DNA of 64,000 nucleotides from Candidatus Woesearchaeota archaeon (GTDB lineage Archaea > Nanobdellota > Nanobdellia > Woesearchaeales > ARS49): NCBI GenBank assembly GCA_018302815.1, contig JAGVZE010000009.1:120149-184148 (forward strand), in the 5' to 3' direction. Within the stretch, counting starts at the first letter, position 1. The number at the start of each line of letters is the position of its first letter. The position numbers and the translations under genes were made by a program. Below the pieces are notes generated by a model. That model saw nothing but the letters and a program-made list of their open reading frames with translations, was not told where the DNA came from and ran no database searches. This document shows positions 13,238 to 55,029 of this stretch, in pieces.

Positions 13238-13388
13238 AGAAAATCTAATATGAAACAATACCGTTCGAAAAAGTGACGCACATCGACATTATCAAAAAAC
13301 CTCCCAAATTTCCACTTCTTAAATTGTAAGAAAATGCGAGCGTTGCTAAAGGGAAACATTTTTATAAGATTTGTTATTTTGTTAAAGC

Positions 13389-13589
13389 ATGGTAAGATAC
13401 GTATGCAAAGGGAGCTGCAAAGGCTCAGTAATTGAAGAAGAATTCAACACCGGAAAGAAAACATGTGCAACAAATGGTTGTGAGAATTTTGGAAATCCAT
13501 TGGTTCCAGAAGAGACCGCGTCAGAACATCCTATGCCGGAGAAATCTGAAGCGCCTGCAGAACAGCCAGCGCAAGAACCAAAACAATAA
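13389..13589 (+). CDS. Small Cys-rich (zinc-ribbon-like) protein
   Basis: MVRYVCKGSCKGSVIEEEFNTGKKTCATNGCENFG with CxxxC...CxxxxC and a Pro/Glu-rich tail. Confidence 0.6.
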   Translation: MVRYVCKGSCKGSVIEEEFNTGKKTCATNGCENFGNPLVPEETASEHPMPEKSEAPAEQPAQEPKQ

Positions 13590-13936
13590 AACTTCTTTGC
13601 AAGCACAAATTTTTTATTTTTTAATTAACCACACTCTAAGAATTCCCTACCTTTTTGGCAGGTGTAAACCGATTCCGATTTTTGCCAGTCATTCCATGCT
13701 TCATTTTTTCCTTGAAATTTTGCGAATCCAGGCTCAAATCCAACTTGGCAACGCAAGATTTATGAGTTTCAAAGCTAAACCACTCCCGGAACAAGCAAGA
13801 AAAGCGCAATTCCGGCAAAAACCATGCAGAAACTCAACATTTCCCAACAAACCACATTCCAAAAAACACTCAAAATAGTGTCTTCTATAGACGAGAAAAA
13901 GTCCGCCCTTGGAATCAAGGTCCAAAGGCGGGAATA

Positions 13937-28647: not shown

Positions 28648-31107
28648 TTACACTCTTCTCTTTTTATACTTTTTGTTTCCTAGTTCCTTCTCAAGCTTTT
28701 TCGTTTTTTTCTCAATCTCGTTGAACAATTTGTCATTATTGAGGCGTTTGTTCATCCGCGCGATATTCTTCTTCGCAAATTTCAAAGAATCGCTCTCAAC
28801 TGCCACTTCACGAGCGGCACGCTTCACATACCCGTCCATCGAGAAATGGTCCTTTTTCTTCAGCTCAGACTCCAAATCATATTTATCTACCTCTATTGAC
28901 TGCGGTGAAACAATTCTCTCTTGCGTTTCAACAGGCAAAGATTGCTCTCTTGAAACTGGTCCCTGAACGGCAAAGTCTGAAGACTCCTGCGGCAGTTCAG
29001 AAGGCGCAGGAAGCATAAGACGCTCAGGCGCAGGAACAGCCGCCTGCGAACGCCTTCGAGCCAACACCAGGTAACCTACCAACGCCAGCACAAGCACTGA
29101 AACCAAAACACCAGCGATGAATGATGCTGAAACCACACCACCATCATACGAAGGCTCAAGCGCACGACCTACAAGAGAACCCGAATCCGCTTGCCCACCA
29201 GCATAGCTCGCAGGTTCAGATTCTTGCGGCGCGACACGCTCTTCAACCCGCACAGGCTGCCCAACAGAAGACTCACGCCTTGGCTTACCAATCGTAGTAA
29301 TCTTGAACTTGGCGTGCGCCTTTTGAATATCAACAAGCTCTATTACAACATCATCGACCCCATCTTCAGTCACATCTATAGAACGGCCAAAACCAATGTC
29401 AATACTGAACTCCTGAGGAACGCTTCGCACCAAAACCCTCGCGCGAGCACTCAAGACATTCATCACGGTCAAAGTATGTTCCACTCCATCAACCATAAAC
29501 CTAACCACTTCCAAACGGGACATAAACGGAGTTATGAACGGATTAGTAATCGCAGTTATCGGCGGACCACTCGTAGCAATTTGCATCGCAGCATACTGCC
29601 CACCGCCGCCAGAACCGCCACCGCCGCCTGGCGCGAAAGGAGGTACAAGCGCTGAAAGCGCTATCGGACAGTTAAAAGTAATACCATTGAAAATCAAAAC
29701 ACCATTGAAACAGAAATTATTCGAAATAAACGCATTAGTGCACGTGAGCCCATTCTCAGTCGAATTGATGACTGTGCAATTATTATTCACTGAATTTATA
29801 ACGGTCGAATTGAGAACTGTGCTGTTAATCTTCGTCGAATTAACTAACACTGAATCATTGATTGTCGAATTCACGACAACGCTACCGCTCAAGTTAGAAT
29901 CCCTAACAAAAGAGAACGAACAACTGCTGTTGATTTCAACTCCATTTATTATCGTGCAGTTGATATTGAATGAATTATTGATCGTTGAATTGATTATCGT
30001 GCTATTTATCTTGGTCGAATTGAATATAGTGCTGTTTTCAACTGTAGTATTAATCAGCGTGCTATTAAACACAGTTATCAACATCGCTCCTGAACCAATC
30101 ACGCCATCCAAACGATAATCAGAACCGTCAACCGACGCAGTAACACCTGAACTCGTCTGCGGCAGCGCTCCCACAAAGTCAACACCACTCGTGCACGTAT
30201 CATTCACCTGCGAAAGAATATCCGCACTAGGACACACACGCACGCCTAAGTTACGGACAGCACTTGCATCGATGAACAAAGTATGGTTCACGCTTCTACC
30301 CGTAACGCCAGATAAATTGAACACAACCGCACTCTCATTGAAATCCAACGTCATAGCATTCGCGTTCACATCGTTAGTATTGAAAAACCCATCAAAAATC
30401 AAGAAACGCTTACCATTGCTCGCATTAAGATACAAAATAGACTGAGTAACGTACGAAGTATCACCCTCAACAAGAGAACCATCGATAGAACCACTCGCAG
30501 TAAGATTATCCGCAGGAGCCGCATCAGGATGGAAATACTCGGAAGTAAACGCGCCAATCGAACAGCACACAGTGATATTATACGCTGAACCAGAACTGCA
30601 GTTCGCAACGTGCGCATTAGTCGTGTTTGAAAGCGTCACAAGACAGGCATTATCTATCGGACATGCTCCAGCCCCAGTCAAATTCACATTGCAGTCCATC
30701 GAAGCGTTCGATGCGGAAATAGTGGCGTTTATCGCATAATTAGACAATGATGTCAACTCAGAATGAGCATTCGTGAAATTCGAAAGATGAAGGAACGCCG
30801 TACCATTCGCATCAGTTCCTATCGTATTCGCACCGCTCGAATCATTACAACACAACAAATGACCATAACTCGTCTCATTGAAAAGCTGAGCATGAGCATT
30901 CGAACCATTCGAAATAGCAAAAATCTTAGACATACCTACCGGACACGAAGACGCATTCACATAAGAACACGTCAAATCCCCACTAGGAGGAAGCACAATC
31001 GCCCCAGTAATCATCGGATTGGAAACCACCCAATACAAACCGAAAAAAAAGAACAGCCCAATAGCAAGAACACCTAACGTTCGCTCAATGTTAAAAGTAA
31101 CTTGCAT
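28648..31107 (-). CDS. Large surface protein with Asn/Ser/Thr repeat domain and C-terminal membrane anchor
   Basis: 819 aa; N-terminal signal/TM, NSTxxNSTxx repeat block, C-terminal ASFIAGVLVSVLVLALVGYLVLARRR and charged tail. Confidence 0.8.
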   Translation of the reverse strand: MQVTFNIERTLGVLAIGLFFFFGLYWVVSNPMITGAIVLPPSGDLTCSYVNASSCPVGMSKIFAISNGSNAHAQLFNETSYGHLLCCNDSSGANTIGTDANGTAFLHLSNFTNAHSELTSLSNYAINATISASNASMDCNVNLTGAGACPIDNACLVTLSNTTNAHVANCSSGSAYNITVCCSIGAFTSEYFHPDAAPADNLTASGSIDGSLVEGDTSYVTQSILYLNASNGKRFLIFDGFFNTNDVNANAMTLDFNESAVVFNLSGVTGRSVNHTLFIDASAVRNLGVRVCPSADILSQVNDTCTSGVDFVGALPQTSSGVTASVDGSDYRLDGVIGSGAMLITVFNSTLINTTVENSTIFNSTKINSTIINSTINNSFNINCTIINGVEINSSCSFSFVRDSNLSGSVVVNSTINDSVLVNSTKINSTVLNSTVINSVNNNCTVINSTENGLTCTNAFISNNFCFNGVLIFNGITFNCPIALSALVPPFAPGGGGGSGGGGQYAAMQIATSGPPITAITNPFITPFMSRLEVVRFMVDGVEHTLTVMNVLSARARVLVRSVPQEFSIDIGFGRSIDVTEDGVDDVVIELVDIQKAHAKFKITTIGKPRRESSVGQPVRVEERVAPQESEPASYAGGQADSGSLVGRALEPSYDGGVVSASFIAGVLVSVLVLALVGYLVLARRRSQAAVPAPERLMLPAPSELPQESSDFAVQGPVSREQSLPVETQERIVSPQSIEVDKYDLESELKKKDHFSMDGYVKRAAREVAVESDSLKFAKKNIARMNKRLNNDKLFNEIEKKTKKLEKELGNKKYKKRRV
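29720..30085 (-). repeat. Coding repeat region (about 5-residue NSTxx periodicity)
   Basis: FNSTLINTTVENSTIFNSTKINSTIINSTINNSF...NSTINDSVLVNSTKINSTVLNSTVINSVNNNCTVINST. Confidence 0.75.
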
Positions 31108-39267: not shown

Positions 39268-40509
39268 TTATATTTCTTGTGTTATATTCGCCGTACTTTC
39301 CTGAATTAAAGCAAAAGATGGAGAAATTCCAAGCTCGTTCATTTCGTGGATAACTACGACGATGTTATGGCAGATGACCTTGCACAGAACCTCGTTCACT
39401 TGTGCTGTCCAGTTCTTGCTTCGTACTCTATCGCCGAACTTTGACTTGATCATGTGAACGGTGGTTTCGGCGTTACTTCGTTTGTGATAGTGTTGCATAA
39501 ACTCCTCGTTTTTAAGCATAAAGTAGTGGTAGAGTTTTTTCCACAGCATCCCGTTTCCATTCGGTTGTGAATTGCTCTTGAATGGAATATATGGGCTTGC
39601 TCCTACGTCATTGATGGTTTGAAGGTTCTCTTTTCCAAGATATGCCTTATCTGCGCTGACTTCTTTCATATCGAAGTGTTCGGCAGTCGTTTTGACGAGT
39701 TCGGGGAGTTCTGGACTGTCGTTATCGAACTCGGTTGTTATTTTCACACTGCTTACGATGTTGCTTTTCGTGCCAGTCATAAAGTGGCATTTAACCCATC
39801 GGCGAGTGCTAAGTTCTCTTCCGTGCTTGAAGCTGAACCATCGTTGGAAGTTTGTTGTGGCAAATCCTGTGCTGTCAATCGCAAAATCTTTTTCTACGGT
39901 TCGTAACGGTAAACTGGTCAATACCACCATATCGGCGAGCAATGAAGTAATCTCTTTCTTTCCAAAATAATCGAACATTGAGTTGTAAGGAACTTTTTTC
40001 TCAACGTAGTTTTTCTGTTCCGCATTTGACAAATCACTTGCGAATCTGCGCCCAGAAAAACCCGAATAGACTTTGAATATCATTGAGTAGATCGTATCGC
40101 TTAATGGGTTGGTTGGTCTTCCGAAAGAATAAGCTGGATTTCGGATGTTCGCCGTTATTCCTGCTAAGAGTTTCATAAACTGGTCTTTCTCAACTTGTTG
40201 GCTCAAGTTGTAACTCTTCCAATCTTGACTATACGTCTTCCTGACCGTCTGAGTGATGGTTACGTTTCCGTTAGTGTCCACTTCTTTGGTAACGATGAGT
40301 TCTACTGCCCAAACGTGCTTACACTTGGACTTTCGGGTTTCGTAGTCTGGACAGGTGCAACTTGCTTCAAAACCGTTGCTAATGACCGTGTATGCTCCTT
40401 GTCCTGTTTGTGATGGCACTTGCCAACCTTTCGTTGTCTTGGTAATCTTGCTGTTTTTTGCGATGTCATATCCTTTCTGTTTTCTTGTTGTCATTTGTTC
40501 TTGGTTCAT
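39268..40509 (-). mobile_element. DDE transposase with N-terminal SWIM-type zinc finger
   Basis: CTCPDYETRKSKCKHVWAVEL (CxCx(n)CxH SWIM) followed by transposase-like core FAIDSTGFATT, VSADKAYLGKENLQ, HYHKRSNAETTVHMIKSKFGDRVRSK. Confidence 0.85.
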
Positions 40510-40853: not shown

Positions 40854-40943
40854 AAAAGAATTACTCACTGGACACTGGACAAACCAAGATAGAGCAAATT
40901 AAAAGCCACATTTTTATCATTGTACATCAAAAAAGAGGTACAA

Positions 40944-43274
40944 ATGGCGAATGAACGGATTACTGAAGATTTCTTCAGAGATGCTATAAAAAAAGATCAA
41001 TTATACAGAGAAGGGAAAATTATTCTTGAAGAACAATCTTCTAAAAATACTAAAATAGACAAATTATTGAAAAACGCTTCTAAAGGTGGAATTGGCGGAG
41101 GTCGTCCTGAATTTATAATTCAATTCAAAGAAGATCCCGATTTCATTATTGTTGTTGAATGTAAACCAAAAATTCAATTTCATCAATCAAAAGAAGGGAA
41201 TAAGTATAAAGAATATGCAGTGGATGGAGTTCTATTATATTCATCATTTTTATCAAAAGAATACGACGTACTTTCCATTGCAATAAGTGGTGAACAAAAA
41301 AATAATTTACGAATATCACATTTTTTACAACTAAGAGGGACTAATGACGGAAGCAAGTTATTTGAAGAGGATAAATTACTATCTCTGATTGATTATTTGA
41401 CGGGATATAAAACCGATGAAAAAAAGTTCAATCAAGACTATCAAGAATTGTTAACCTATTCAAAAACACTTAATGACAAATTACACTCAATAAAAATTCC
41501 AGAATCTCAAAGGAGTCTCTTAATAAGCGGAATTCTTATTGCCGTAACAGATAAAGCATTTAAAAATGCATATAAATTTCAAAAGCCAAAGGAATTATCT
41601 GAGAATTTAGTTAATACAATCAAAAACAAATTAACAGATGTCCAAAATGAACATATAGAAGAAATTATTACCTCATACAGCTTCATTAAAACACATACCA
41701 TAATTTCCAAAGAAGAAAATAAATTAAGAGAAATAATTACGGAAATAGATCAGAGAATAAATAATTTTTTGAGAACGTACAAGTATTATGATATTTTAGG
41801 ACAATTTTATGTGGAATTTTTAAGATATGCTAATAACGATAAAGGACTGGGAATTGTTTTAACTCCTCCGCACATTACTGAACTCTTTTGTGAAATAGCT
41901 AATGTTAACAAAGACAGCGTAGTTTTAGATAATTGTGCAGGAACTGGTGGCTTCTTAATTTCCGCCATGAGGAAAATGATTAAAGATTCTAAAGGCGATA
42001 GTAAGAAAGAAGATACTATTAAACATAAACAAATTATCGGGATTGAATTTCAGCACGAAATTTTTGCTTTAATTTGTTCTAATATGTTCATTCATGGCGA
42101 TGGAAGAAGTAATTTGATAAAAGGTTCTTGTTTTGATCCTAAAATCATAGATCAGGTTAAAAAGTTTAAACCAAACGTTGGTTTCTTAAATCCACCATAT
42201 AAGTCTACGAAAACTGACCCAGAAGAATTAGAATTCGTGTTGAATAATCTGTCTGTACTTCAAAAAGGATCTTTATGTGTGGCAATTATTCCAATGAGTT
42301 GTGCTTTAGTTCAAAGTGGAATTGGACTTGTATTAAAAGAAAAGCTACTCAGAGAACATACGTTAGAAGCTGTTTTCTCTATGCCGACTGAGTTGTTTCA
42401 TAATTCTAACGTAGGAGTTAATACTTGCATAATGGTTTTCAAATCCAAAGAAAAACATCCTTCAAATTATAAAACGTACTTTGGATATTGGAAAGATGAT
42501 GGTTTCATAAAAAGAAGACAGGGAAGAGAAGATTATCACAATAAATGGGCAGAGATAAAAAAATATTGGTTAACAAATTATCAAAATAAAGAAGAAATAA
42601 TAGGTCACAGTATTAAAAAATCGGTTTCTGCGGGGTTTGAATGGTGTGTTGAAGCATATATGGATACTGATTACTCTGACTTAACAAAAGATCACTTTGA
42701 AAAGACGCTAAGAGAAAACGTAATATATTCTTTGAGAAGCGGTTTAATAAAAAACGTTTCGGAAAAACCAAAGACTACCATCGCCTCACTTGATTTGCAT
42801 ATAAAAAACTGGAAAAATTTCAAAATAATAGATCTGTTTGACATTAAAAAAGGTGAAAGATTAGTGAAAGAACAACGAATAGAAGGAAATATTCCACTAA
42901 TTACTGCAACTTCCGAAAATAATGGTGTTGTAGATTATATCTCGCTTGATGAATTTAAAAATAGCAAGAAGATTTTCAAAGATAAACTAACAATAGATAT
43001 GTTTTTTAACGTCTTTTATCACCGCTATGAATATTTCAGTGATGACAATGTTCATACATTAATACCGAAGGATATGGTTCTCAATAAATATGTTTGTATA
43101 TTCTTGGTTACAATTCTAAAAAAACTTCAGTATAAATACGATTTTGGCAGACAAGTAAGATTACAAAGATTGGACTTCGATCAAATAGCGCTACCAGTAG
43201 ATAAAAAAGGAAATCCTGATTGGCAGTTAATGGAAAATTACGTTAAATCACTATCCTATTCCTCAAATTTATAG
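40944..43274 (+). CDS. One-polypeptide restriction-modification-like enzyme (nuclease-like N-terminus, N6-adenine methylase, HsdS-like target recognition domain)
   Basis: GGGRPEFIIQFKEDPDFIIVVECKPK (PD-(D/E)XK-like), VVLDNCAGTGGFLISAM and VGFLNPPYKS (NPPY), C-terminal WKNFKIIDLFDIKKGERLV...GNIPLITATSENNGVVDYI. Confidence 0.85.
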   Translation: MANERITEDFFRDAIKKDQLYREGKIILEEQSSKNTKIDKLLKNASKGGIGGGRPEFIIQFKEDPDFIIVVECKPKIQFHQSKEGNKYKEYAVDGVLLYSSFLSKEYDVLSIAISGEQKNNLRISHFLQLRGTNDGSKLFEEDKLLSLIDYLTGYKTDEKKFNQDYQELLTYSKTLNDKLHSIKIPESQRSLLISGILIAVTDKAFKNAYKFQKPKELSENLVNTIKNKLTDVQNEHIEEIITSYSFIKTHTIISKEENKLREIITEIDQRINNFLRTYKYYDILGQFYVEFLRYANNDKGLGIVLTPPHITELFCEIANVNKDSVVLDNCAGTGGFLISAMRKMIKDSKGDSKKEDTIKHKQIIGIEFQHEIFALICSNMFIHGDGRSNLIKGSCFDPKIIDQVKKFKPNVGFLNPPYKSTKTDPEELEFVLNNLSVLQKGSLCVAIIPMSCALVQSGIGLVLKEKLLREHTLEAVFSMPTELFHNSNVGVNTCIMVFKSKEKHPSNYKTYFGYWKDDGFIKRRQGREDYHNKWAEIKKYWLTNYQNKEEIIGHSIKKSVSAGFEWCVEAYMDTDYSDLTKDHFEKTLRENVIYSLRSGLIKNVSEKPKTTIASLDLHIKNWKNFKIIDLFDIKKGERLVKEQRIEGNIPLITATSENNGVVDYISLDEFKNSKKIFKDKLTIDMFFNVFYHRYEYFSDDNVHTLIPKDMVLNKYVCIFLVTILKKLQYKYDFGRQVRLQRLDFDQIALPVDKKGNPDWQLMENYVKSLSYSSNL

Positions 43275-44745: not shown

Positions 44746-45252
44746 TTACGCCCTAAACAGAATTGATATCTCGACTATAAGAAGCGGGAAAGATAAGAAA
44801 AGAGCAAGAGGCGCCAGAACGAAAGACACAAGAGAAATACCTATCAACACGCTCAATATACCAGCAGAACGAGCGCCCCGTATCTTCAAATTAAAGAACG
44901 CCACACCCACAAGAATATTCAAAACAGCATACAAAACTGTGAAAAGAACTATCATCACCACTGATGACGCTCCAGCTAACTGGACAAGAAAATCAAGCGA
45001 CGCCACAAGCACCCCTGCAACTGAAGAACCTACAAGAAGAAAATTCCTCTTCTCAAAACCAAGCAACGCAAAACCGAACGTGAAAAGAAGACTCACTATA
45101 AACGTAACAGCTGTGAAAACCACATCAGCCATACCAATCAACGGAAACAACTCTGCAAAACCACTAAGCAAATATTGAGAAATTGCAACTGCGAGAAGAG
45201 GGAGTTTTAAAATAAGCAAAATTATACCCGCAACTGCGAACGGCCAATAACG
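44746..45252 (-). CDS. Multi-pass membrane protein
   Basis: Several hydrophobic helices; start MRYWPFAVAG preferred because the longer ORF start (45315) overlaps repeat copy 3. Confidence 0.65.
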   Translation of the reverse strand, partial: RYWPFAVAGIILLILKLPLLAVAISQYLLSGFAELFPLIGMADVVFTAVTFIVSLLFTFGFALLGFEKRNFLLVGSSVAGVLVASLDFLVQLAGASSVVMIVLFTVLYAVLNILVGVAFFNLKIRGARSAGILSVLIGISLVSFVLAPLALFLSFPLLIVEISILFRA

Positions 45253-45304
45253 CATAAACAGACTAATGTTTTTGAGATTAAAAAGGTTTGGAAAGGCGAG
45301 CCGA

Positions 45305-45443
45305 AGATAAACCATCGGTTCAAATCCGAAGTAAAGAAAAGTAGGCAGGGCGTTAGAGCGACGCCCTGCCAGGATCCCCTTATCAGTTCGGTTCTTTTAA
45401 GTTTTTCGTTTGAAATCTTGGCGTGCATTACATTTGCACTACA
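45305..45443. repeat. Structured dispersed repeat / candidate ncRNA, copy 3 (diverged)
   Basis: AGATAAACCATCGGTTCAAATCC vs copy 1 GGATAAACCCAAGGGTTCAAATCC; strong hairpin GGCAGGGCGT..ACGCCCTGCC (45344-45370); 3' block TGCATTACATTTGCACTACA. Confidence 0.55.
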
Positions 45444-45444
45444 A

Positions 45445-45482
45445 GAAAAAAATTTCCTAAAATGGAAAATTTCTGGACTTAC
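45445..45482. repeat. dif-like/operator-like palindromic repeat, copy A
   Basis: GAAAAAAATTTCCTAAAATGGAAAATTTCTGGACTTAC; 35/38 identical by eye to copy B. Confidence 0.8.
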
Positions 45483-45526
45483 TTTCTTTAACTTGCAATA
45501 CCCAGTATATACAAGAGGTGAAGCGC

Positions 45527-45952
45527 ATGGGACTCTATAAGTACCGCTTTAACGTCTTTGAACGGATCAAATCCGTAAAAGATATTTTACAACCCGTCTG
45601 CCCAGATAAAGATAGCTTCACAGTACGCGGACTTGTCATGCGCTGCGTCAAATATCGAGCCCGACTCATCAATAAGCTCAACCAAGATGAAAGCAGAGCA
45701 TATGAACTCCTTCTCAAAAACAAGCTCAATCCGAAAACCGTCTACACGTGGCTCCTTTTGGAAGATTCACCCCCTGAATTACGACAAAAACTGGAGCAGA
45801 ACAAAATCAGCATCATCGACGCACGACACGAGTACGTCCGGTGGAAAAGACAATCGGGCACAAATTCAGCACAAGAACTCATGGAAGAAATGCGAACCGT
45901 TATTGGGAGGTTAAAATGGAAAAGTCACGAAAGTTTGCACAACTTGCAATAA
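45527..45952 (+). CDS. Hypothetical protein encoded upstream of and overlapping the tyrosine recombinase
   Basis: MGLYKYRFNVFERIKSVKDILQPVCPDKDSFTVRGLVMRCVKYRARLINKL...; overlaps recombinase start at 45916. Confidence 0.65.
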   Translation: MGLYKYRFNVFERIKSVKDILQPVCPDKDSFTVRGLVMRCVKYRARLINKLNQDESRAYELLLKNKLNPKTVYTWLLLEDSPPELRQKLEQNKISIIDARHEYVRWKRQSGTNSAQELMEEMRTVIGRLKWKSHESLHNLQ

Positions 45953-46731
45953 ACAACCAAAACCTGAGTAAAACGCAGGATAAGAAGCGACGTAGAAAAA
46001 AATATCCGAACGTCTTTTTCAAAAAAGAGATCACACAACTCTTCAAGGCCATAGAAAACGTAAGAACAATGGTTGCCACCTTCCTCACTTTCTTTTGCGC
46101 TCTTCGCATATCTGAAGCATGTAAACTCCAATGGACAGATGTCGATCTCCAAGACTGCCGACTCAAAGTAGTCGATGGCAAGAACCACAAGGACGGATTC
46201 ATACCAATCTCACCACTCGCCATCCCCATACTCAAAAAATGGCGCGCAATGAACCCCAACGAACAATACGTTTTACCCACAGACAAGTTCAAAACAGGAT
46301 ACTACCAACCAACCTCCCTACTCAAAGACTACAAAAAAGCCCTCACCAAAGCAGGACTCGAAATACCCACTGAGAAAAACGCAGCAGGACTACAACAACA
46401 CCAATACAAATTCCACACCCTCAGACATAGCCGCTGCACCCACCTCCTCAACAACGGCGTTCCCGTTCAAAAAGTCCAAAAATTCATGCGCCACGACGAC
46501 CTCGAAACAACAATGACCTACACGTGGATATTAGATGGAGAAATGAACAAAATGGTACAAGATGCCGACATCGACAACTACGAAGAACCCACACCTGCCC
46601 TTTCAAATAAAGCAACTCCAATCTCAAGACTAAACCCGCTCGAAATCGCACAAAAACGCCTCGTTACCGGAGAAATCAGCGTTCGAGAATACAAAAAGCT
46701 AACTCGAGCGCTCTCTCAAGTCTCCACCTAA
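45916..46731 (+). CDS. Tyrosine recombinase/integrase (Xer-like)
   Basis: CALRISEACKLQWTDVD (Arg I), FHTLRHSRCTHLLNNGVPVQKVQKFMRHDDLETTMTYTW (HxxR...H...Y); GGGAGGT RBS. Confidence 0.95.
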   Translation: MEKSRKFAQLAINNQNLSKTQDKKRRRKKYPNVFFKKEITQLFKAIENVRTMVATFLTFFCALRISEACKLQWTDVDLQDCRLKVVDGKNHKDGFIPISPLAIPILKKWRAMNPNEQYVLPTDKFKTGYYQPTSLLKDYKKALTKAGLEIPTEKNAAGLQQHQYKFHTLRHSRCTHLLNNGVPVQKVQKFMRHDDLETTMTYTWILDGEMNKMVQDADIDNYEEPTPALSNKATPISRLNPLEIAQKRLVTGEISVREYKKLTRALSQVST

Positions 46732-46770
46732 TACGTTTTCTCCCACCATAAGAAAAAAGTTTCATTTTTC

Positions 46771-46808
46771 GGAAAAATTTTCCTAAACTGGAAAATTTCT
46801 GGACTTAC
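46771..46808. repeat. dif-like/operator-like palindromic repeat, copy B
   Basis: GGAAAAATTTTCCTAAACTGGAAAATTTCTGGACTTAC; perfect 9-bp arms AAATTTTCC-TAAACT-GGAAAATTT. Confidence 0.8.
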
Positions 46809-46941
46809 ATTAATTTACTTCACCGACTACTAATACCTCATGAGAAAAGTCGAAGCCAGGTCCTCAAATATGCCAACAAAATATGCTGCTTCGAATTTCA
46901 CCGCTCATCATTTTCAACCATAACTAAGGAGTGATGCCCCC

Positions 46942-47154
46942 ATGAAACACCAACATAGCGACAGCTCTGTAAAACAGAAAAGACACGGACGCAAGAAAAC
47001 CATCTTTCCAGATAACTGGCAGTATTCCAAACACGCCAACAAAAGACGATACTGCGAAGGGTGCGGCAACAGACTGCGAAAACACGAACCGGACCCCTGC
47101 GACGACTGTCAACGTGAAAGAGAATATGGCGCAGACATGGAGGTAACACGATGA
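46942..47154 (+). CDS. Small zinc-finger protein
   Basis: RRYCEGCGNRLRKHEPDPCDDCQRE (CxxC...CxxC). Confidence 0.65.
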   Translation: MKHQHSDSSVKQKRHGRKKTIFPDNWQYSKHANKRRYCEGCGNRLRKHEPDPCDDCQREREYGADMEVTR

Positions 47155-47633
47155 AACTTATCGAAATGTATTTTTGGAACGCCTTGTATTGGGCACTTTA
47201 CCTGCCGAGCAGCCTGATTATCCATTTGATAACAGGCCAGGGCGACATACTGGGAATCCTCATCGTCGGCCTGCTTTTGACAGGGATTTTCACTTTGATT
47301 CTCTTATTCCAAGAAGGCGTTCTTTGGGATGATTTAGAGCCCGCCACGATCTTGACTGAAGAAGAATGCCAAGAAGAACTCGCAAAACTCACGGGCAAGC
47401 CAGCCAAACGTGAGGAGAAACCGTCTGATGAACAATCACCGGCTGAAACCGTTGAGGAACTGCCTGTTGACGCGCCAATTGAAAACTTGGAGGTGAACAC
47501 CAATGCCGAAGAAGGAAAAACCCGACCCGACCATACCGACTCCGCCCCCGACGGGGTCGAGCCAGAGCCGAAACTGCGTACCGATGTTCGTCTTGATGAG
47601 CTTTATGCTCCTGACGACAGTGTTGTCGGTTAG
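47151..47633 (+). CDS. Membrane protein with acidic C-terminal tail
   Basis: Two hydrophobic segments then Glu/Asp/Pro-rich tail; overlaps preceding ORF start/stop. Confidence 0.65.
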   Translation: MKLIEMYFWNALYWALYLPSSLIIHLITGQGDILGILIVGLLLTGIFTLILLFQEGVLWDDLEPATILTEEECQEELAKLTGKPAKREEKPSDEQSPAETVEELPVDAPIENLEVNTNAEEGKTRPDHTDSAPDGVEPEPKLRTDVRLDELYAPDDSVVG

Positions 47634-47901
47634 CGCTGCAAGCGCGATGCCGCCAAGCACGACTACTGATACGGCAGCGTTTGACCAGATATTGCAGCCC
47701 GTGTGGAAAGTGTACAATTTCGTAAAGTACATCGCCACCGCCATCGCTGCGATATTCATGGTCTTTGCCGGCATCAAGTTCATGACCAGCGGCAACGACA
47801 TGATGCAACGCGAGAACGCCAAAAGCATGATCGGCTACGTCGTCATCGGCTTGATCGTGATATGGGCGGCTCCATTCGTGGTGCAACTATTCGCATCATA
47901 A
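47503..47901 (+). CDS. TrbC/VirB2-like pilin-type membrane protein
   Basis: Signal-like segment then VWKVYNFVKYIATAIAAIFMVFAGIKFMTSGNDMMQRENAKSMIGYVVIGLIVIWAAPFVVQLF. Confidence 0.8.
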   Translation: MPKKEKPDPTIPTPPPTGSSQSRNCVPMFVLMSFMLLTTVLSVSAASAMPPSTTTDTAAFDQILQPVWKVYNFVKYIATAIAAIFMVFAGIKFMTSGNDMMQRENAKSMIGYVVIGLIVIWAAPFVVQLFAS

Positions 47902-49184
47902 CAACGCTTTTTTTCTTTATTTTTTTCGCACAAATAGCAACCGCATTCCCCTGCGACCGGTTCGGATGGTTCACGAGTTGCGACGTAGTGATGTGGAGCA
48001 ATATGCCCGAGGATGAAAAAATGCAAACAATCGCAAGCATGATCGACGATGTTCACTCTTGGAACACTGATTTTGAGGTAGACGGGCTGCCAGAAGGAAC
48101 TCGAACGGTTGACGACGGTCTCGTCAGAAACGCATGGATTCGCGTAATGGCAGTCATGCCAAGCATCTATGAGGGTGGCAATGTGCTCAGTCCGGGTTTT
48201 GGCGAAGTGATTGCAAAGAGCAATTTTGAAATCAAAAAACCGTACGGCAAGGAAGGGCGTGATTGTGATACGGATTACGATCTCTCGTACAATTCAAAGA
48301 TTGTTCATCACTTGAATGGCGTTGAAATAGGGACTGGAGAAATTGCGCAATTCAACACGAATGATAGCCTGCTTGATTTCAGAGCCGACTTGGTTATTGA
48401 CATCGCTCTCAATGTTGACCATTATCGCTGGAAGCGTATTAACGGAACGCGCAAATGCATCTTTTACAGGATAGAGCAAAGAAACGAGCAAACCATAGTT
48501 AGCGGTGAATTTCAAGCCGTCAGTTACCAGCCCAACATCACGTATTCATTCAACGTTCAAAATCAATACTATGGAATCACGCAAATTCAATTCAACGCAT
48601 CAAATTACTCGTGGTTCCGCTTGCAATTCAATGACGATGATTTCTATGAAGAAAGAACTACAGAATTTGAACCTTTCTTCAATTTGGAACCCTACTACAT
48701 TCTGAATTTCAAGCCCAAAATACACAAGACCATTCAATTTCAAGGAGTAAGATTTCAAAACGATACATTTCAAGTGACTGACCTTCGTAATTGTAAGATT
48801 TTGCTTGGTGACTATTTCAGAACGTACACGCTTCCTTGTCCTTTGCAATACAAACCCCTCGGGTTGCAAGTCTTTACGGACAAGACCATTTACGAACCAG
48901 GAGAGATAATTCACGTTACTGTTCTTCCGAAGATTCCTGTGCTACTTTCGTATGGAAATGAGACAGTTCTGGTTCAAGGTTCTGCTGAGCTTCGAGCCAA
49001 GTTTGGCGAGCATTTGATCGTTGCACGAGTGAATGGCATTGAGGCGGTCAAAGCAATTTATGTAACAAATTCGTCTAATTGGAACACTTTTTGGGGCATT
49101 TTAGGATTTCTGCTCGTTTGCTTCGTGTTTTACAAAGTGACTGTTCGACTGGTTGGAGGTGCGTATGACTTGTGGAATTCTTAA
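47862..49184 (+). CDS. Secreted/membrane-anchored protein of the T4SS-like cluster
   Basis: Start MGGSIRGATIRIITTLFFFIFFAQIATAFPCD overlapping VirB2-like ORF; C-terminal TM TFWGILGFLLVCFVFYKVTV. Confidence 0.75.
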   Translation: MGGSIRGATIRIITTLFFFIFFAQIATAFPCDRFGWFTSCDVVMWSNMPEDEKMQTIASMIDDVHSWNTDFEVDGLPEGTRTVDDGLVRNAWIRVMAVMPSIYEGGNVLSPGFGEVIAKSNFEIKKPYGKEGRDCDTDYDLSYNSKIVHHLNGVEIGTGEIAQFNTNDSLLDFRADLVIDIALNVDHYRWKRINGTRKCIFYRIEQRNEQTIVSGEFQAVSYQPNITYSFNVQNQYYGITQIQFNASNYSWFRLQFNDDDFYEERTTEFEPFFNLEPYYILNFKPKIHKTIQFQGVRFQNDTFQVTDLRNCKILLGDYFRTYTLPCPLQYKPLGLQVFTDKTIYEPGEIIHVTVLPKIPVLLSYGNETVLVQGSAELRAKFGEHLIVARVNGIEAVKAIYVTNSSNWNTFWGILGFLLVCFVFYKVTVRLVGGAYDLWNS

Positions 49185-50085
49185 TCTGCCAGAATGTATC
49201 GTGGACCAGCTCACTGGTTTCATTCAAAATATTGTGAACGCTCCCTTGGTTCCTTTTCTTGACATCATTCGTCGTTTGCTCACGCAGCCAGCGAATGTGA
49301 GCGCGTTTGGAAGCTTATGGGCAGTGATTATCTACATTTTGAGCACTTTTTACGGGCTTTTCATCATGGCTGCGGGTTTTAATTTCATCATTTCGGGTTA
49401 CAATGCTGAGAAGCGTGAGCGTGCGAAGGAATGGTTGCAGAATGTGATTTTGATGGTTTTCTTCGTCCAAGCAAGCTTTCTTCTTTACAGCCTTGTGGCC
49501 GAAATCGCGGCAGGCATTACTTCGGGAATTATCAATATGATTGATCCAAACTTCTTCCTGATAACGATAGATAATACTTTGAATGTGGGTTTGGAAATTG
49601 TGCTTGGCGTGTTTTATCTTCTCACCTTACTCATCACGATTATCGCGCTTTCGGTGAACTATTTTCTCGCCAGCATTGGCGTTGTGTTCATTCCTTTCGG
49701 CATATTCTTCTATTTTATTCCACCATTGCGCGACATTGGTAAGTTTATCATCAGCAAATTAGCGTTCGTTCTGTTCATTCCTTTCTTTGCAAGCCTCGTC
49801 CTGCTTGGTGTCAGTCAATTATTGACCCTGAGCTTCTTCGAATACCTGAAAATTGTCTTTATGATTAGTGCCTTCATGACGATTAATCTACTGATAATAA
49901 TTCTCGCTATCTTGGCGGTCTTTAGATCTGTTATGGGAGTGCTACGCTCTGATGTGGGACGAAGCGCCCTGTTCCTCAAAGGACATCTCTTAGCGGGTGT
50001 TGCTGCTCAAAAGCCCGATCCGTACAATGATAGGGAGTATTGGAAAAAGTTTCGCAAGGACTACTATCCACGAGGTGGCCGATGA
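49165..50085 (+). CDS. VirB6/TrbL-like polytopic membrane protein
   Basis: Multiple TM helices, GFNFIISGYNAEKRERAKEWLQNVILMVFFVQASFLLYSLVAEIAAGI; ATGA overlap with VirB4. Confidence 0.75.
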   Translation: MTCGILNLPECIVDQLTGFIQNIVNAPLVPFLDIIRRLLTQPANVSAFGSLWAVIIYILSTFYGLFIMAAGFNFIISGYNAEKRERAKEWLQNVILMVFFVQASFLLYSLVAEIAAGITSGIINMIDPNFFLITIDNTLNVGLEIVLGVFYLLTLLITIIALSVNYFLASIGVVFIPFGIFFYFIPPLRDIGKFIISKLAFVLFIPFFASLVLLGVSQLLTLSFFEYLKIVFMISAFMTINLLIIILAILAVFRSVMGVLRSDVGRSALFLKGHLLAGVAAQKPDPYNDREYWKKFRKDYYPRGGR

Positions 50086-53000
50086 GCTACGAAATCCCCC
50101 AGTCACTCCAGTATCAGGAGAAGATTATTTTCAACCTGACGTTAGAGCAGTTGATTTATGCCGCCCTTTTTGGTTTTCCTGCAATTTTGATGTATGCAAA
50201 ACTGCCATTTTCAATCTATACTCGTGTTACTTTGGCATTCGTTCCTGTGAGTTTGGGTTTGATGTTTATGTATCTTGATTTGTGGCACAAAATCAGAGAT
50301 TTCTGGGCCTACTTGAAGTTCCGGCGGGCAACGATGTTTGACAAAGCAATGAAGAAATATCTCAAATTGAACGCGGTTGAGAATTCTTGTTACGAAGTTC
50401 AGACCAAAAATGGCACTAAAAGAGTGGCTGTTTTGCGAGTTGAACCTTTGAATTTCAAAATTAAGACAAAAGACGAGCGGGACAGCATTATTTTCGCGTT
50501 TCAGAAATTCTTGAACGCGTTGGACTTCCCAGTACAGTTTTTGATGTACACTGATGAGTTGAATTTGAACGATTACCTGAAACAGCTTGATTTGAAAGTT
50601 GACAAGACGGGAAACAAGACCTATAAGGAACTTCTTGATGCGCACAAGAAGTATGTGGACTTGATTATGCGTGAGAAATCAGATGCAAACCGGAGATTTT
50701 TGATTTCCATTATCGAGAACGAAATGGGATTGGACGCGCAAGTCAAAATCGTTGAAGAATTGCTGGCAACAATGAATTTGAAATGCGTGCGACTTGGAGG
50801 ACGGCAACTCATCGGAGTCCTCATCAGACTGTTCAACAATCCGCGGGGAAGAACAGAAATCTTGAAGAAAGAAAAGACGATCTACACCATTACCGCACCA
50901 GAAGAAATTGTCAACAAGCCTGATTACATCAAAGTCAACGAGTATTACAACAGAATCATTGTCGCAGTCGGGTATCCTCGTGTTGTTGAAGAGGGCTTTC
51001 TTGACAAAATGGTTACCGCGGCAGGCAATTTTGATTTAAGCATTCATATCGAGCCATTTCCAATAGAAAACACTCTCGTGATGCTCAATAAAGAGGTTCA
51101 GAAACAGCGTGCGGACTTGTTTGCTGCTGAATTGAAGCATAGCTTCCAGCCAAGTCTTGAAATTCAATATAGAGACACCCAAGCGGTGCTTAATAGCATT
51201 CAGAAAGGTGAAGAAAAACTATTCAACGTCAGTCTATACATCAACGTGAAGGCAAAAGACCTCAAAGAGCTTGACATTCTCACCAAAACCATCCAATCGC
51301 GATTGAATAGTATGCTGATTATTCCAAAAGTGCCAAAGTATCGCATGGCGCAAGCGTTCAGATCAATCATTCCTTTCGGCATTAACGAATTGGGAATACG
51401 GAGAAACATCACCACGCACCCCCTATCAGCTTTCTTTCCGTTCACCAGCCCATTCCTCATGCTCGAAAAAGGAGGCGTCTTCTTAGGCATCAACAAAAAC
51501 AGACTACCCATCATCAAGGACATCTTCAACCTCTCAAACGCAAACGGCGCCATTCTCGCAACAAGCGGTGGCGGCAAAAGCTACACTGCCAAACTCATCA
51601 TTTCACGCTACCTCATAAATGGCACAAAAATCATCGTGATAGATCCACAGGACGAATACACAAAACTCACCGAAAAATACGGCGGAAGCGTAATCAACAT
51701 TAGCAGAGATAGCAACACAATCATCAATCCTCTCGATTTGTTGAATCATACATATCCCGAGAAGCGTCTTGCACTTTTGGACTTTTTCACCATGATTTTC
51801 GGAGACTTCAACGAATTACAAAAAGCAATCGTAGACAAAGCCATAAGCCAAACTTATGCCAACGCCGGAATAACGGAAAAAAATTACTTCAACAAAATCC
51901 CGCCCACATTGAAAGACCTATATGAAGAACTGGAGCAGATGAACCAAAAAGCAACAGGATTTGAAAAAGCAGCCTACACCACACTCCTGAGCCGGTTGAG
52001 CATGTACGTAACTGGCGTTTTCGCATTTCTCAACCAACAAACAAAAATAAACATCACAAACCAATTCGTCACATTCAATCTCGGCAGCATGCCAAAACAA
52101 ATCAAGCCCATCATGATGTTCCTCATCCTCGAATACGTCTACACCAAAATGAAACAAGACAAAGAACGAAAATTGCTCGTCATTGATGAAGCGTGGAGTT
52201 TACTCTCGCGCGCCGAAGATGAAGGGTACATTTTTGAGATTGTCAAAACGTGCAGAAAATTCAATCTGGGATTGTTGCTCATCACTCAGGATGTTGCTGA
52301 TTTGGTCAATAGCAAGGCAGGAAGAGCCGTACTCGCAAACAGCTCATACACAATCCTCTTACGCCAAAAACCAGCCGTCATTGACAGCGTCGAGAACATC
52401 TTTCACTTGAGTTTTGCCGAGCGCGAACATCTCCTAAGCGCAAACGTAGGAGAGGGTTTGATCATGATGGAAAACGACCACCAAGAAATCAAAATAGTCG
52501 CCAGTAAAGAAGAACACGCACTCATCACGACCAAACCAGATGAACTCTTATTCCCCGAAACCGACCACACCGCCGACCTCTCCCTTGATGGTAAGAAGCT
52601 CGTCAAAGAATTGTACCCACTCAAAGACGTTTACCGCTTGAGCGGCTTGCACCTCGTTCAAAAGGAATTCTTGGACAACCTGCGCGACCCCAAGTATTCA
52701 GAAGAACTCCTCATACACCCCTACGAGAGCAGGCAAGCCCGCTTCAAAATCCGCCAACGCGGCAACGAAGGAGCAGACCACATCAGCCTTTCATGGTGGA
52801 TACTTGAAGAACTCCTCAACCTCACCCCCACAGCCATCCGCATATACAGTAAGACCAATGAGGTCAACCCCGACCTCACATTCACCAACGCCTCTAGCAA
52901 GGTCATTGCTATCGAGGTAGAGACTGGCTCTAACTACCGCTTCAATAAAGACTATCTCCTGCGTAAGATAGCTGCTCTGGAACGCCTTTACCCTCACAGG

Positions 53001-53255
53001 TGGTGTTTGTTCCTCTCTACCAACGTCTATGACCGCAGATACCGCACCATTCTTCCACCCCACGTTCCCATCTATCTGCGTAAGCATCTTAGGTGGTTCC
53101 TCAAGGAGCACTTCCCCTCTGGCAGACCCCCTCCCCTTAATACAACAACCGTAGGCCATACTCAAAATATCGACGAGAAGTCAAAACCAGTATACCCTGC
53201 GCCCAACACAGTATACCCTAACCAAAATCAAGCCGTGCAAGGTGTGCAACCATGA
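50082..53255 (+). CDS. VirB3/PrgI-like + VirB4/TraC-like conjugation ATPase with C-terminal nuclease-like extension
   Basis: N-terminal MSYEIPQSLQYQEKIIFNLTLEQLIYAALFGFPAIL; Walker A ILATSGGGKSYTAKL; Walker B KLLVIDEAWSLL; C-terminal NPDLTFTNASSKVIAIEVETG. Confidence 0.92.
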   Translation: MSYEIPQSLQYQEKIIFNLTLEQLIYAALFGFPAILMYAKLPFSIYTRVTLAFVPVSLGLMFMYLDLWHKIRDFWAYLKFRRATMFDKAMKKYLKLNAVENSCYEVQTKNGTKRVAVLRVEPLNFKIKTKDERDSIIFAFQKFLNALDFPVQFLMYTDELNLNDYLKQLDLKVDKTGNKTYKELLDAHKKYVDLIMREKSDANRRFLISIIENEMGLDAQVKIVEELLATMNLKCVRLGGRQLIGVLIRLFNNPRGRTEILKKEKTIYTITAPEEIVNKPDYIKVNEYYNRIIVAVGYPRVVEEGFLDKMVTAAGNFDLSIHIEPFPIENTLVMLNKEVQKQRADLFAAELKHSFQPSLEIQYRDTQAVLNSIQKGEEKLFNVSLYINVKAKDLKELDILTKTIQSRLNSMLIIPKVPKYRMAQAFRSIIPFGINELGIRRNITTHPLSAFFPFTSPFLMLEKGGVFLGINKNRLPIIKDIFNLSNANGAILATSGGGKSYTAKLIISRYLINGTKIIVIDPQDEYTKLTEKYGGSVINISRDSNTIINPLDLLNHTYPEKRLALLDFFTMIFGDFNELQKAIVDKAISQTYANAGITEKNYFNKIPPTLKDLYEELEQMNQKATGFEKAAYTTLLSRLSMYVTGVFAFLNQQTKINITNQFVTFNLGSMPKQIKPIMMFLILEYVYTKMKQDKERKLLVIDEAWSLLSRAEDEGYIFEIVKTCRKFNLGLLLITQDVADLVNSKAGRAVLANSSYTILLRQKPAVIDSVENIFHLSFAEREHLLSANVGEGLIMMENDHQEIKIVASKEEHALITTKPDELLFPETDHTADLSLDGKKLVKELYPLKDVYRLSGLHLVQKEFLDNLRDPKYSEELLIHPYESRQARFKIRQRGNEGADHISLSWWILEELLNLTPTAIRIYSKTNEVNPDLTFTNASSKVIAIEVETGSNYRFNKDYLLRKIAALERLYPHRWCLFLSTNVYDRRYRTILPPHVPIYLRKHLRWFLKEHFPSGRPPPLNTTTVGHTQNIDEKSKPVYPAPNTVYPNQNQAVQGVQP

Positions 53256-53395
53256 AATGCCCCTCAAACAAGCACGAAATCACACTCTGGCTCAATTGCG
53301 AACAATTCGCACTATTACAGCAAGCAGCACAATACGTTGGTTGCGGAAATGATCTCGAACGATACATCATCGGCATACTTGCTGACAATTGTTGA
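53252..53395 (+). CDS. 47-aa microprotein
   Basis: MKCPSNKHEITLWLNCEQFALLQQAAQYVGCGNDLERYIIGILADNC; ATGA overlap with VirB4 stop. Confidence 0.6.
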   Translation: MKCPSNKHEITLWLNCEQFALLQQAAQYVGCGNDLERYIIGILADNC

Positions 53396-53412
53396 ACGGA
53401 GGTGCAAACAAA

Positions 53413-53523
53413 ATGGCGTACTATCTGGAATGCGCGGTGTGCGGAGAATGGGCAAAACGGCTCGAACCCGGAGAATACCACTGCGGCCGACCAATGACGG
53501 CCATACAAGAATGCGAAGTCTGA
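53413..53523 (+). CDS. 36-aa zinc-ribbon-like microprotein
   Basis: MAYYLECAVCGEWAKRLEPGEYHCGRPMTAIQECEV; GGAGGTG upstream. Confidence 0.6.
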   Translation: MAYYLECAVCGEWAKRLEPGEYHCGRPMTAIQECEV

Positions 53524-53538
53524 AACGGAGGTGGAAGA

Positions 53539-53628
53539 ATGAGATGCCAACAATGCGGAATTGGATTGGATAGTTTTGATGCAGAAGAAGCGTGCTACAA
53601 TTGCGGTCGCAAATCAGCGGAGGCATAA
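53539..53628 (+). CDS. 29-aa zinc-ribbon-like microprotein
   Basis: MRCQQCGIGLDSFDAEEACYNCGRKSAEA; CxxC...CxxC; GGAGGTGG upstream. Confidence 0.6.
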   Translation: MRCQQCGIGLDSFDAEEACYNCGRKSAEA

Positions 53629-53631
53629 ACC

Positions 53632-53736
53632 ATGAGAAAAACCAAACAAACGACGGAAGAACCACAACGAGAAGAAGAGCCCAACATGAATGAAGAACTT
53701 TGGAAGGAACAAAATGAAGAAAACAGGGAGGAATAA
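53632..53736 (+). CDS. 34-aa acidic microprotein
   Basis: MRKTKQTTEEPQREEEPNMNEELWKEQNEENREE; GGAGG near the preceding stop. Confidence 0.5.
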   Translation: MRKTKQTTEEPQREEEPNMNEELWKEQNEENREE

Positions 53737-53737
53737 T

Positions 53738-54064
53738 ATGGAAGAAGCAAAAACACAAACGGTCGCGGGTCAAACCGCGACTTTTTCTTTTTCAAAGCAC
53801 GGCAAGCGTTTGAAAGAAAACCTCGTTCGCGTGCAAACACTCAGTAGCGGACAAAAACACGTTACCATTCCCGCACCCTTAGCAAAAGCGGCAAATATCG
53901 AGCGTCGAGACGTGGTTGAATGGCGCATTTGCAAAAGCACCGGCAAACTCGAACTAACCGTAATCAAGAACTACACGCCACCAACCCAAGAGATAACACC
54001 GGAGGTTAAAACCCATGAAAGCAGCCTTGTACATTCGAGTGAGCACGGACAAACAAGCCAGTGA
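53738..54064 (+). CDS. AbrB-like DNA-binding protein
   Basis: RVQTLSSGQKHVTIPAPLAKAANIERRDVVEWRI; overlaps start of the serine recombinase. Confidence 0.65.
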   Translation: MEEAKTQTVAGQTATFSFSKHGKRLKENLVRVQTLSSGQKHVTIPAPLAKAANIERRDVVEWRICKSTGKLELTVIKNYTPPTQEITPEVKTHESSLVHSSEHGQTSQ

Positions 54065-54809
54065 AGGTAGCAGCCTAGAAGTCCAAGAAGAAAAACTCCG
54101 CAAGTATTGTAGTTTCCAAAACTGGGACATCTTCCAACTCTACGCTGATAGAGGAATTTCCGGCAAGGATACGGAACGGTTGCAGTTTCAGACGCTGATG
54201 AAAGACGCGAGGGAAAAAAGGTTTGAAGTAGTCGTGGTCGCGAAACTTGACCGGTTCGGAAGAAGCCTTCGAGATCTCATCAACACTATCTGGGACTTAA
54301 ACGCAATAGGAATTCAATTCACCAGCATTAACGACAACATCAACACAACAACACCAAACGGCAAACTCCTATTCCACATCCTCGGAGCCTTTGCCGAATT
54401 TGAACGAGAAATCATACGAGAACGAATGATGGCAGGAATCGCCAAATCACGAGAACTCGGACGCATCATAGGACGGGTCCCAATGGGCTACAAAGTTGTT
54501 AACAAAAAAGTATGCTTCGACCCTGAAAAAGCCCCACGCGTAAAGGGAATCTTCAACGCATACGCCGCAGGAGAAACCATCTGGAAAATCTCCAACCAGC
54601 TACAAATGAAGCCCTCTACCGTCTCGTACATTCTCAAGAACCAATTTTATGCAGAACCACGCAAAAACGGCACCCACGAGGCTCTGGTTGGCAAAGACTT
54701 GTTTGACGCTATCCAACCCGCGTTACAGACGACAAGACGACCATACCAACCCATCACACCTTTGGTGACCAACCTGAATAGTACTGTAAACGCTTCTCCT
54801 TGCGTATAG
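54015..54809 (+). CDS. Serine recombinase (resolvase/invertase family)
   Basis: KAALYIRVSTDKQASEGSSLEVQEEKLRKY, VVAKLDRFGRSLRDLI, GAFAEFEREIIRERMMAGI. Confidence 0.96.
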   Translation: MKAALYIRVSTDKQASEGSSLEVQEEKLRKYCSFQNWDIFQLYADRGISGKDTERLQFQTLMKDAREKRFEVVVVAKLDRFGRSLRDLINTIWDLNAIGIQFTSINDNINTTTPNGKLLFHILGAFAEFEREIIRERMMAGIAKSRELGRIIGRVPMGYKVVNKKVCFDPEKAPRVKGIFNAYAAGETIWKISNQLQMKPSTVSYILKNQFYAEPRKNGTHEALVGKDLFDAIQPALQTTRRPYQPITPLVTNLNSTVNASPCV

Positions 54810-55029
54810 ACGGTTGTTTCTTCTTTTTCTTACCTTTCTCGTCCTCAGACCTCAAACGCTCCAGAACTGCTAAAACTGTGTTATGCTCCTCCGAAGGCTC
54901 TTTTTCAACCATGCCAAAATAAAGCATAAAACGTCTATTTAAACCAATCGTCGGAAGAGCAAAACCAACACCATCCCACAACGCGAAGCTACTCTTCAGA
55001 ATTTGCTCAGAATATTTCCAGGAGGGCAA
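54754..55029 (-). CDS. Hypothetical protein
   Basis: 91-aa ORF with Lys-rich C-terminus; convergent with serine recombinase. Confidence 0.4.
   Translation of the reverse strand: MPSWKYSEQILKSSFALWDGVGFALPTIGLNRRFMLYFGMVEKEPSEEHNTVLAVLERLRSEDEKGKKKKKQPSIRKEKRLQYYSGWSPKV

Follow-up and report, generated by a model that had tools for sequence, protein, structure and literature searches.

A probable ICE-like family of woesearchaeal elements with a minimal type IV secretion system and a predicted nuclease domain on its VirB4 motor

Introduction

Bacterial integrative and conjugative elements (ICEs) carry a relaxase, an origin of transfer (oriT) and a coupling protein, and bacterial relaxases are spread over both ICEs and integrative and mobilizable elements (IMEs). 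Thaumarchaeal ICEs encode VirB4, usually VirD4, VirB6, VirB3, TFIIB and ParB, have no relaxase and often lie in tRNA genes; most hold a VirB4–VirD4 pair, span ∼64 kb and carry FlaI/PilT and ParB, and restriction-modification (R-M) genes are common on thaumarchaeal integrated mobile genetic elements (PMC6563490). Ced of the Sulfolobales and Ted of the Thermoproteales are domesticated DNA importers with a minimal VirB2–VirB6–VirB4 set and neither relaxase nor VirD4 (PMC9905601). A survey of type IV secretion systems (T4SSs) in Patescibacteria reported no VirB3–VirB4 fusions and mostly relaxase-less systems, for which co-option was suggested (PMC12102498). Published accounts leave unresolved how Sulfolobus plasmids, thaumarchaeal ICEs and Ced/Ted process their DNA in the absence of a relaxase (PMC6563490, PMC9905601). 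Here, we analyze a locus at positions 45400–54810 of a 64,000-nucleotide stretch (the window) of Candidatus Woesearchaeota archaeon (assembly GCA_018302815.1, contig JAGVZE010000009.1, positions 120,149–184,148), for which we favor, with moderate confidence, membership in an ICE-like family of integrative elements from woesearchaea, with a minimal T4SS and a motor that bears a predicted nuclease domain.

Results

All of the open reading frames (ORFs) named in the preliminary description are present on the plus strand, in the order first stated and with short overlaps between neighbors, and the main members have Pfam or NCBIfam support. A 141-aa protein, here called the helper (45527..45952, +), and a tyrosine recombinase (TyrR; 45916..46731, +) form an operon that is followed by the T4SS operon. 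The TyrR (PF00589, 1.9e-28) is XerA/XerC-like and consists essentially of the catalytic domain only; the XerA_Arch profile matches starting at position 70. The T4SS operon encodes a VirB2/TrbC-type pilin (47503..47901, +; PF18895, 4.4e-13; PF04956, TrbC/VirB2, 1.7e-8), a VirB6/CedA-like polytopic membrane channel (49165..50085, +) and a VirB3(PrgI)–VirB4 ATPase fusion with a C-terminal PD-(D/E)XK-like nuclease domain (50082..53255, +). The fusion matches PrgI/VirB3 (1.1e-4), the TraG P-loop (4e-28) and NCBIfam ICE VirB4 models (1e-97); its sole relative by sequence in the PDB is the VirB4 of Thermoanaerobacter (4ag5, 2e-40), its named relatives come from a Candidatus Woesearchaeota metagenome-assembled genome (MAG) and from an archaeon listed as uncultured, which makes the host a DPANN archaeon within or close to Woesearchaeota, and a search of IMG/VR returned no relatives. 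When related genomes were searched for the same gene order, as had been suggested, helper–TyrR–pilin–VirB6–VirB4 was found again in loci L046, L064, L068 and L073, and this recurrence in other GTDB families places the order far beyond chance.

The relatives of the locus are patchily distributed. Within the order, 56 of 288 genomes have a match, some of them to a stand-alone C-terminal domain only; across the phylum, 39 of the 371 genomes sampled do, and these extend to other families of the class. TyrR homologues sit at element ends beside tRNA genes, and elements with a longer TyrR adjoin tRNA-Glu, -Gly, -Leu, -Thr and -Gln; for L073 the adjacent tRNA was recognized by eye, as low-threshold ARAGORN output there was noise. 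Three relatives have a repeat of the tRNA 3′ end at the far side, of 19 bp (G038:C34, element of 16.7 kb), 17 bp (G238:C111, 21.9 kb) and 16 bp (G026:C27, 27.8 kb), against a roughly estimated 0.002 chance exact 16-mers from a tRNA neighborhood in 40 kb. The TyrR lies at the tRNA end in all three, and two more relatives have a TyrR beside a tRNA gene. The VirB4 tree mixes host families instead of following them. Two genomes from different families (G246 and G060) are 94.7% identical in DNA over 2.1 kb of helper–TyrR and 89–97% over VirB4 and the sequence that follows; a housekeeping gene for comparison was found in neither. R-M genes accompany 17 of the 39 T4SS loci but just 2 of the 20 loci used for comparison (p = 0.009). 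As judged by these comparisons, a minimal T4SS operon (pilin, VirB6 and VirB3–VirB4), together with a short TyrR and the helper, is mobile among genomes, often with R-M genes as cargo.

VirB4 is found at three sites of the same genome, which comprises 1.55 Mb in 26 contigs: in the window (contig C24), in C13 and in C7, the latter two being 65% identical to the window copy. The core common to all three is membrane protein–pilin–VirB6–VirB3/VirB4–47-aa microprotein. In the window, the helper–TyrR and T4SS operons are neighbors in the same direction; C13 and C7 have no integrase beside the T4SS, and the helper lies 13–19 kb downstream on the opposite strand, followed by a short TyrR. C13 10765–16076 aligns with C7 10156–15460 at 80% (the T4SS end, 5.3 kb) and C13 27390–28995 with C7 33547–35141 at 73% (the integrase end, 1.6 kb); the cargo in between, which includes type I restriction systems, differs. 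With similarity confined to the two ends, the unit consists of the T4SS operon, cargo and (TyrR, helper), in that order, and is about 18 and 25 kb long. At its integrase end, the C7 element directly adjoins the 5′ flank of a tRNA-Pro gene. Relatives that are patchy, multi-copy, tRNA-bounded and spread over families therefore constitute an ICE-like family rather than fixed, non-mobile chromosomal genes, the outcome that was to have overturned the original proposal of an integrative, T4SS-bearing archaeal element.

The surroundings of these copies contain other features. A dispersed ∼280-bp repeat occurs on the C13 contig (L005/L006) at 1–280, 2521–2757, 4336–4616, 5078–5289, 8843–9016 and 28988–29086, and at L007 1–281 and 1723–1792. 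Its promoter (CCTTTAAAAAG...GGGGATA) is stable-RNA-like and resembles the sequence that precedes tRNA-Pro, and the C13 element end adjoins one copy of the repeat. Directly left of the C7 element, L007 1909–9770 holds a chemotaxis cluster (CheA, CheB, CheY, CheW and MCP, assigned by sequence).

All of the close VirB3–VirB4 fusions inspected (28/28) end in the same C-terminal domain, whose nuclease core in the window copy (52749..53114, +) is defined by His900, Asp931, Glu945-x-Glu947 and Lys962; the His, Asp, ExE and Lys are invariant. The domain belongs to no Pfam or NCBIfam family, and a PDB profile search gave nothing useful. A first AlphaFold2 model of the long VirB4 C-terminus was of low confidence, and the trimmed domain alone was therefore used; it was modeled with a pLDDT of 78 and a pTM of 0.73 as an α-β-β-β-α-β core. 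The best Foldseek matches are mostly PD-(D/E)XK proteins (NucS/EndoMS, VRR_NUC, Can2, Card1, Mus81 and EcoO109I). The domain is thus predicted to have the PD-(D/E)XK core topology and D-(D/E)xK-type residues in an ExE variant. It shares the predicted topology and the D-ExE-K residues with NucS/EndoMS, VRR_NUC, Can2/Card1 and Mus81, but departs from PD-(D/E)XK nucleases in that ExE takes the place of ExK, the helix that follows carries the Lys, no Pfam family matches, and the domain is fused to VirB4.

The domain also occurs alone. Eight loci, among them contig C17 of the same genome, hold it in a tightly packed cassette with the order TyrR–nuclease–(convergent) TyrR–helper; it stands directly beside a TyrR in at least five others. 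Cassette loci that lack a T4SS are L121, L124, L129, L130, L133, L137, L141 and L142. The cassette of a short TyrR, nuclease-domain protein, second TyrR and helper may represent a separate family of IME-like elements.

The preliminary description had noted neither relaxase nor VirD4. For VirD4, PF02534 gave nothing above the cut-off genome-wide, with control genomes positive and VirB4 itself as the sole weak match (TcpA was not searched). The relaxase family PF03432 gave nothing genome-wide, in a search that did not extend to MobA/MobL, TrwC, HUH Rep and other families; that part of the original statement therefore holds for PF03432. No relaxase match was found among the window proteins and scanned cargo proteins, and no conserved relaxase-like gene among the clustered neighbors of the T4SS loci. 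A ribbon-helix-helix (RHH) protein of C13 matches the NikA/MobC family PF21983 (1.2e-6, 28.9 bits against a 27-bit cut-off), its C7 counterpart falls just under that cut-off (1.2e-5, 25.8 bits), and relatives are present in about ten loci.

Because neither relaxase nor VirD4 was found, and because the placement of the nuclease domain in both kinds of element resembles the distribution of bacterial relaxases over ICEs and IMEs, we propose the domain as the DNA-processing enzyme. The earlier suggestion that an unrecognized domain supplies the relaxase function has thereby gained a conserved, nuclease-like candidate on VirB4, and we infer by analogy that this domain may perform the DNA processing done elsewhere by a relaxase. 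More tentatively, such a nuclease, either fused to VirB3–VirB4 in ICE-like elements or alone beside two TyrR genes in IME-like elements that might borrow the machine, could replace both relaxase and coupling protein in archaea. Alternatively, the domain could serve excision or integration, as integrases accompany it even where there is no T4SS.

The two operons of the window are each preceded by a copy of a 48-bp repeat (45447..45494, +, before helper–TyrR; 46773..46820, +, before the T4SS operon). The first contains the palindrome AAATTTCC-N6-GGAAAATTT with a TATA-like stretch just downstream. The copies are direct, identical at 42 of 48 positions, have a 9-6-9 palindromic core, flank exactly the helper and TyrR genes, and occur nowhere else in the genome. 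Element-specific repeats of different sequence precede both operons in C7 (22/24), C13 (26/32), L068 (21/23) and L046 (11/11); shuffled sequences reached the repeat score in 0 of 200 trials for the window, C7, C13 and L068 and in 3 of 200 for L046. None was detected in L064 or L073. The repeats lie 22–32 nt ahead of the helper start and roughly 50–120 nt ahead of the T4SS operon, the latter distances in L068 and L046 having been counted directly on the sequence. Because C7, C13, L068 and L046 hold their own, different repeats at the same two places, the 48-bp repeats are most likely twin operators rather than attachment (att) sites, and a role as att core is disfavored. As the integrase and T4SS operons bear the same operator, they are probably turned on jointly. 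The helper itself, which is paired with the short TyrR, is present in four copies in this genome and in 40 of 288 genomes of the order. It matches no Pfam, NCBIfam or PHROG family, and a PDB profile search gave nothing useful; judged by eye alone, it appears helix-turn-helix-like and similar to ParB/KorB.

The remaining genes of the T4SS operon are less readily assigned. The first encodes a zinc-ribbon protein (46942..47154, +), and related small proteins occupy the corresponding position in L013, L014, L073 and further elements. Next comes a membrane protein (47151..47633, +) that has a single long hydrophobic stretch and is conserved in C7, C13, L013 and L014. The DNA for its C-terminal part, likewise conserved, is shared with the pilin gene in a different frame; this overlap of ∼130 nt (47503–47633) is retained in the same four loci. 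A protein with a signal sequence and a C-terminal transmembrane (TM) segment (47898..49184, +) matches no family and is absent from C7 and C13. VirB6 is a ∼2-kb ORF (∼680 aa) in L060–L062, L067 and L073–L075, with separate secreted and VirB6 genes elsewhere, and since the two are joined in many relatives, the window protein is probably the N-terminal ectodomain of their VirB6. No ATG, GTG or TTG lies near its signal sequence (47880–47910), so that an ATA or ATT start, or coupling or frameshifting from the pilin gene, would be needed. The VirB6-like protein has at least five TM segments and is 43–63% identical across elements, with no family match and no PDB relative by sequence.

Directly 3′ of VirB4 lies a 47-aa microprotein (53252..53395, +), RHH-like by eye, without a Pfam match and conserved in C7, C13 and L013, followed by a 44-aa zinc-ribbon-like one (53389..53523, +) with a weak Desulfoferrod_N match (0.029). 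Of the four microproteins listed originally, the former is thus conserved and the latter plausible, with no conservation for the rest; the zinc finger and AbrB-like calls have weak matches, both below cut-off (DZR, 0.0023; MazE, PF04014, 0.14). The AbrB/MazE-like protein (53690..54064, +) is present in the window copy only. The small serine recombinase (54015..54809, +; PF00239, 3e-46) is accessory: it is lacking in C7 and C13 and was found among the relatives only in L069, that is, in 2 of 39 loci in all. It was therefore rejected as a core part and is probably a passenger, and the presence of two recombinase chemistries, which had been noted as unusual for one element, is not supported as a defining trait.

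Left of the element, the flanking gene (44749–45315) is unique, and a DHH gene is merely ∼36% identical in genomes of the same family. A T-arm-like GGTTCAAATCC at 45319 was considered as a tRNA remnant and rejected, as no tRNA of the genome matches at three or fewer mismatches. Just left of the element, a type IIG restriction enzyme-methyltransferase (40920–43274; PADLOC, 2.4e-155) is situated in an AT-rich island (30–33% GC) adjoined by a transposase-like ORF (39268–40509, named without a hidden Markov model). Outside the element, window 13321–13657 and L005 4647–4982 share a 337-bp repeat at 85% identity.

Discussion

The family resembles thaumarchaeal ICEs in being archaeal and integrated and in encoding VirB4, VirB6 and VirB3 with no relaxase found. 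It is unlike them in its lack of VirD4, smaller size (∼9–28 kb), VirB3–VirB4–nuclease fusion, VirB2-type pilin, and helper with a short TyrR. TFB-like genes, named from sequence and not in the window copy, are present in 6 of 39 loci (L059, L060, L062, L064, L067 and L074), where they lie, with a conserved ∼91-aa partner, directly 3′ of or near VirB4; this may parallel the TFIIB genes carried by thaumarchaeal ICEs. Ced and Ted have no integrase, and no VirB3–VirB4–nuclease fusion is described for them in the sections of PMC9905601 devoted to these systems. With bacterial ICEs of the FATA class, the family shares related PrgI/VirB3 and VirB4 proteins (Mycoplasma Mbov_0397 and CD1110 VirB4 profiles, 1e-97), an integrase and a pilin related to the Mbov_0395 family, and differs in that neither a PF03432 relaxase nor a PF02534 coupling protein was found genome-wide. 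Like Patescibacteria, the hosts combine ultrasmall cells with a reduced T4SS of the same T4SS_pilin family, mostly relaxase-less there; unlike in Patescibacteria, the VirB3–VirB4 fusion and the integrase linkage are conserved.

A T4SS mating pore including VirB4 is present in the family, and three relatives, with a TyrR and tRNA-end repeats, also have an integrase and bounding att sites. The family thus behaves like an archaeal ICE yet falls outside the bacterial ICE definition, and since no relaxase or coupling protein was found we do not place it in any named family. It is a family of mobile elements without an earlier name; in the open-access literature we found no earlier account of such ICE-like elements from DPANN lineages. 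The original designation as an undescribed system must be narrowed: archaeal ICEs without a relaxase were already known, and what is new is the DPANN family, the VirB3–VirB4–nuclease fusion and the absence of VirD4.

In the mechanism that we propose, the TyrR would excise the element, with the helper as a directionality or regulatory factor. The PD-(D/E)XK domain on VirB4 would nick or otherwise process the DNA and couple it to the motor, perhaps aided in C7 and C13 by the NikA/MobC-like RHH protein, and the VirB4 hexamer would export the element via the VirB6 channel and VirB2 pilus.

Several observations weigh against this interpretation. Neither an att pair nor a circular form was found for the window copy, nor an oriT (no search aimed at one was made); genomes of the same family are too diverged to reveal an empty site, and this copy shows no NikA-like protein. 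The identity of VirB6 is drawn from topology and conserved synteny, no Foldseek match to the nuclease-like domain has an E-value below 1e-3, and the predicted nuclease may degrade DNA instead of preparing it. The genomes are all presumably MAGs, in which mis-binning could mimic transfer, including that between G246 and G060. The missing att pair and NikA-like protein, along with the serine recombinase and AbrB-like genes that C7 and C13 lack, would also fit a decayed remnant whose ORFs are intact but whose mobility is lost; we consider this unlikely, given that the core ORFs are all intact, the ATPase and nuclease residues invariant and the operators preserved. It is very unlikely that the 48-bp repeats are recombination sites of a small, self-excising integrase cassette independent of the T4SS. 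Their direct orientation, palindromic core, uniqueness and bracketing of just two genes suit such a cassette, and helper–TyrR is also found without a T4SS, but C7, C13 and L068 carry their own differing repeat ahead of the same two operons, in C7 a distance of 25 kb separates the two copies, which are in inverted orientation, and the position close to the helper start and a TATA-like box is operator-like.

Two other explanations concern the machine itself. It could be a domesticated importer akin to Ced/Ted that takes up DNA of neighbors, with the VirB4 nuclease trimming it and the integrase linkage being secondary. The part list is the same (VirB2, VirB6 and VirB4 without relaxase or VirD4; PMC9905601), single-stranded DNA generation in Ced/Ted has been credited to HerA–NurA, likewise a motor–nuclease pair, and the T4SS operons of C7 and C13 are distant from their integrase. 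Nevertheless, Ced and Ted are chromosomally fixed and without mobility genes, whereas the present elements are multi-copy and tRNA-bounded, have a patchy distribution and probably share their regulation with an integrase, which makes an importer quite improbable. Equally improbable in our estimation is a machine for protein export or cell contact, delivering effectors to hosts or competitors in keeping with a DPANN lifestyle, or a defense island directed with its R-M genes against mobile elements. The enrichment of R-M genes, the scores of the VirB4 motor against the PADLOC mad8/HerA models and the presumed co-option of relaxase-less T4SSs in Patescibacteria (PMC12102498) point in this direction; against it, the genes between the conserved ends vary from copy to copy as cargo would, the neighbors include no conserved effector-like gene, and protein export offers no obvious use for a nuclease domain that is invariant.

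If the locus does belong to such an ICE-like family, a nuclease within the motor protein may explain archaeal DNA transfer without a relaxase. Since the candidate enzyme is covalently joined to the motor and its catalytic residues are defined, the relaxase question is reducible to point mutants. ICE-like elements in DPANN archaea would provide a route for gene flow, including that of restriction systems, in lineages thought to be small symbionts.

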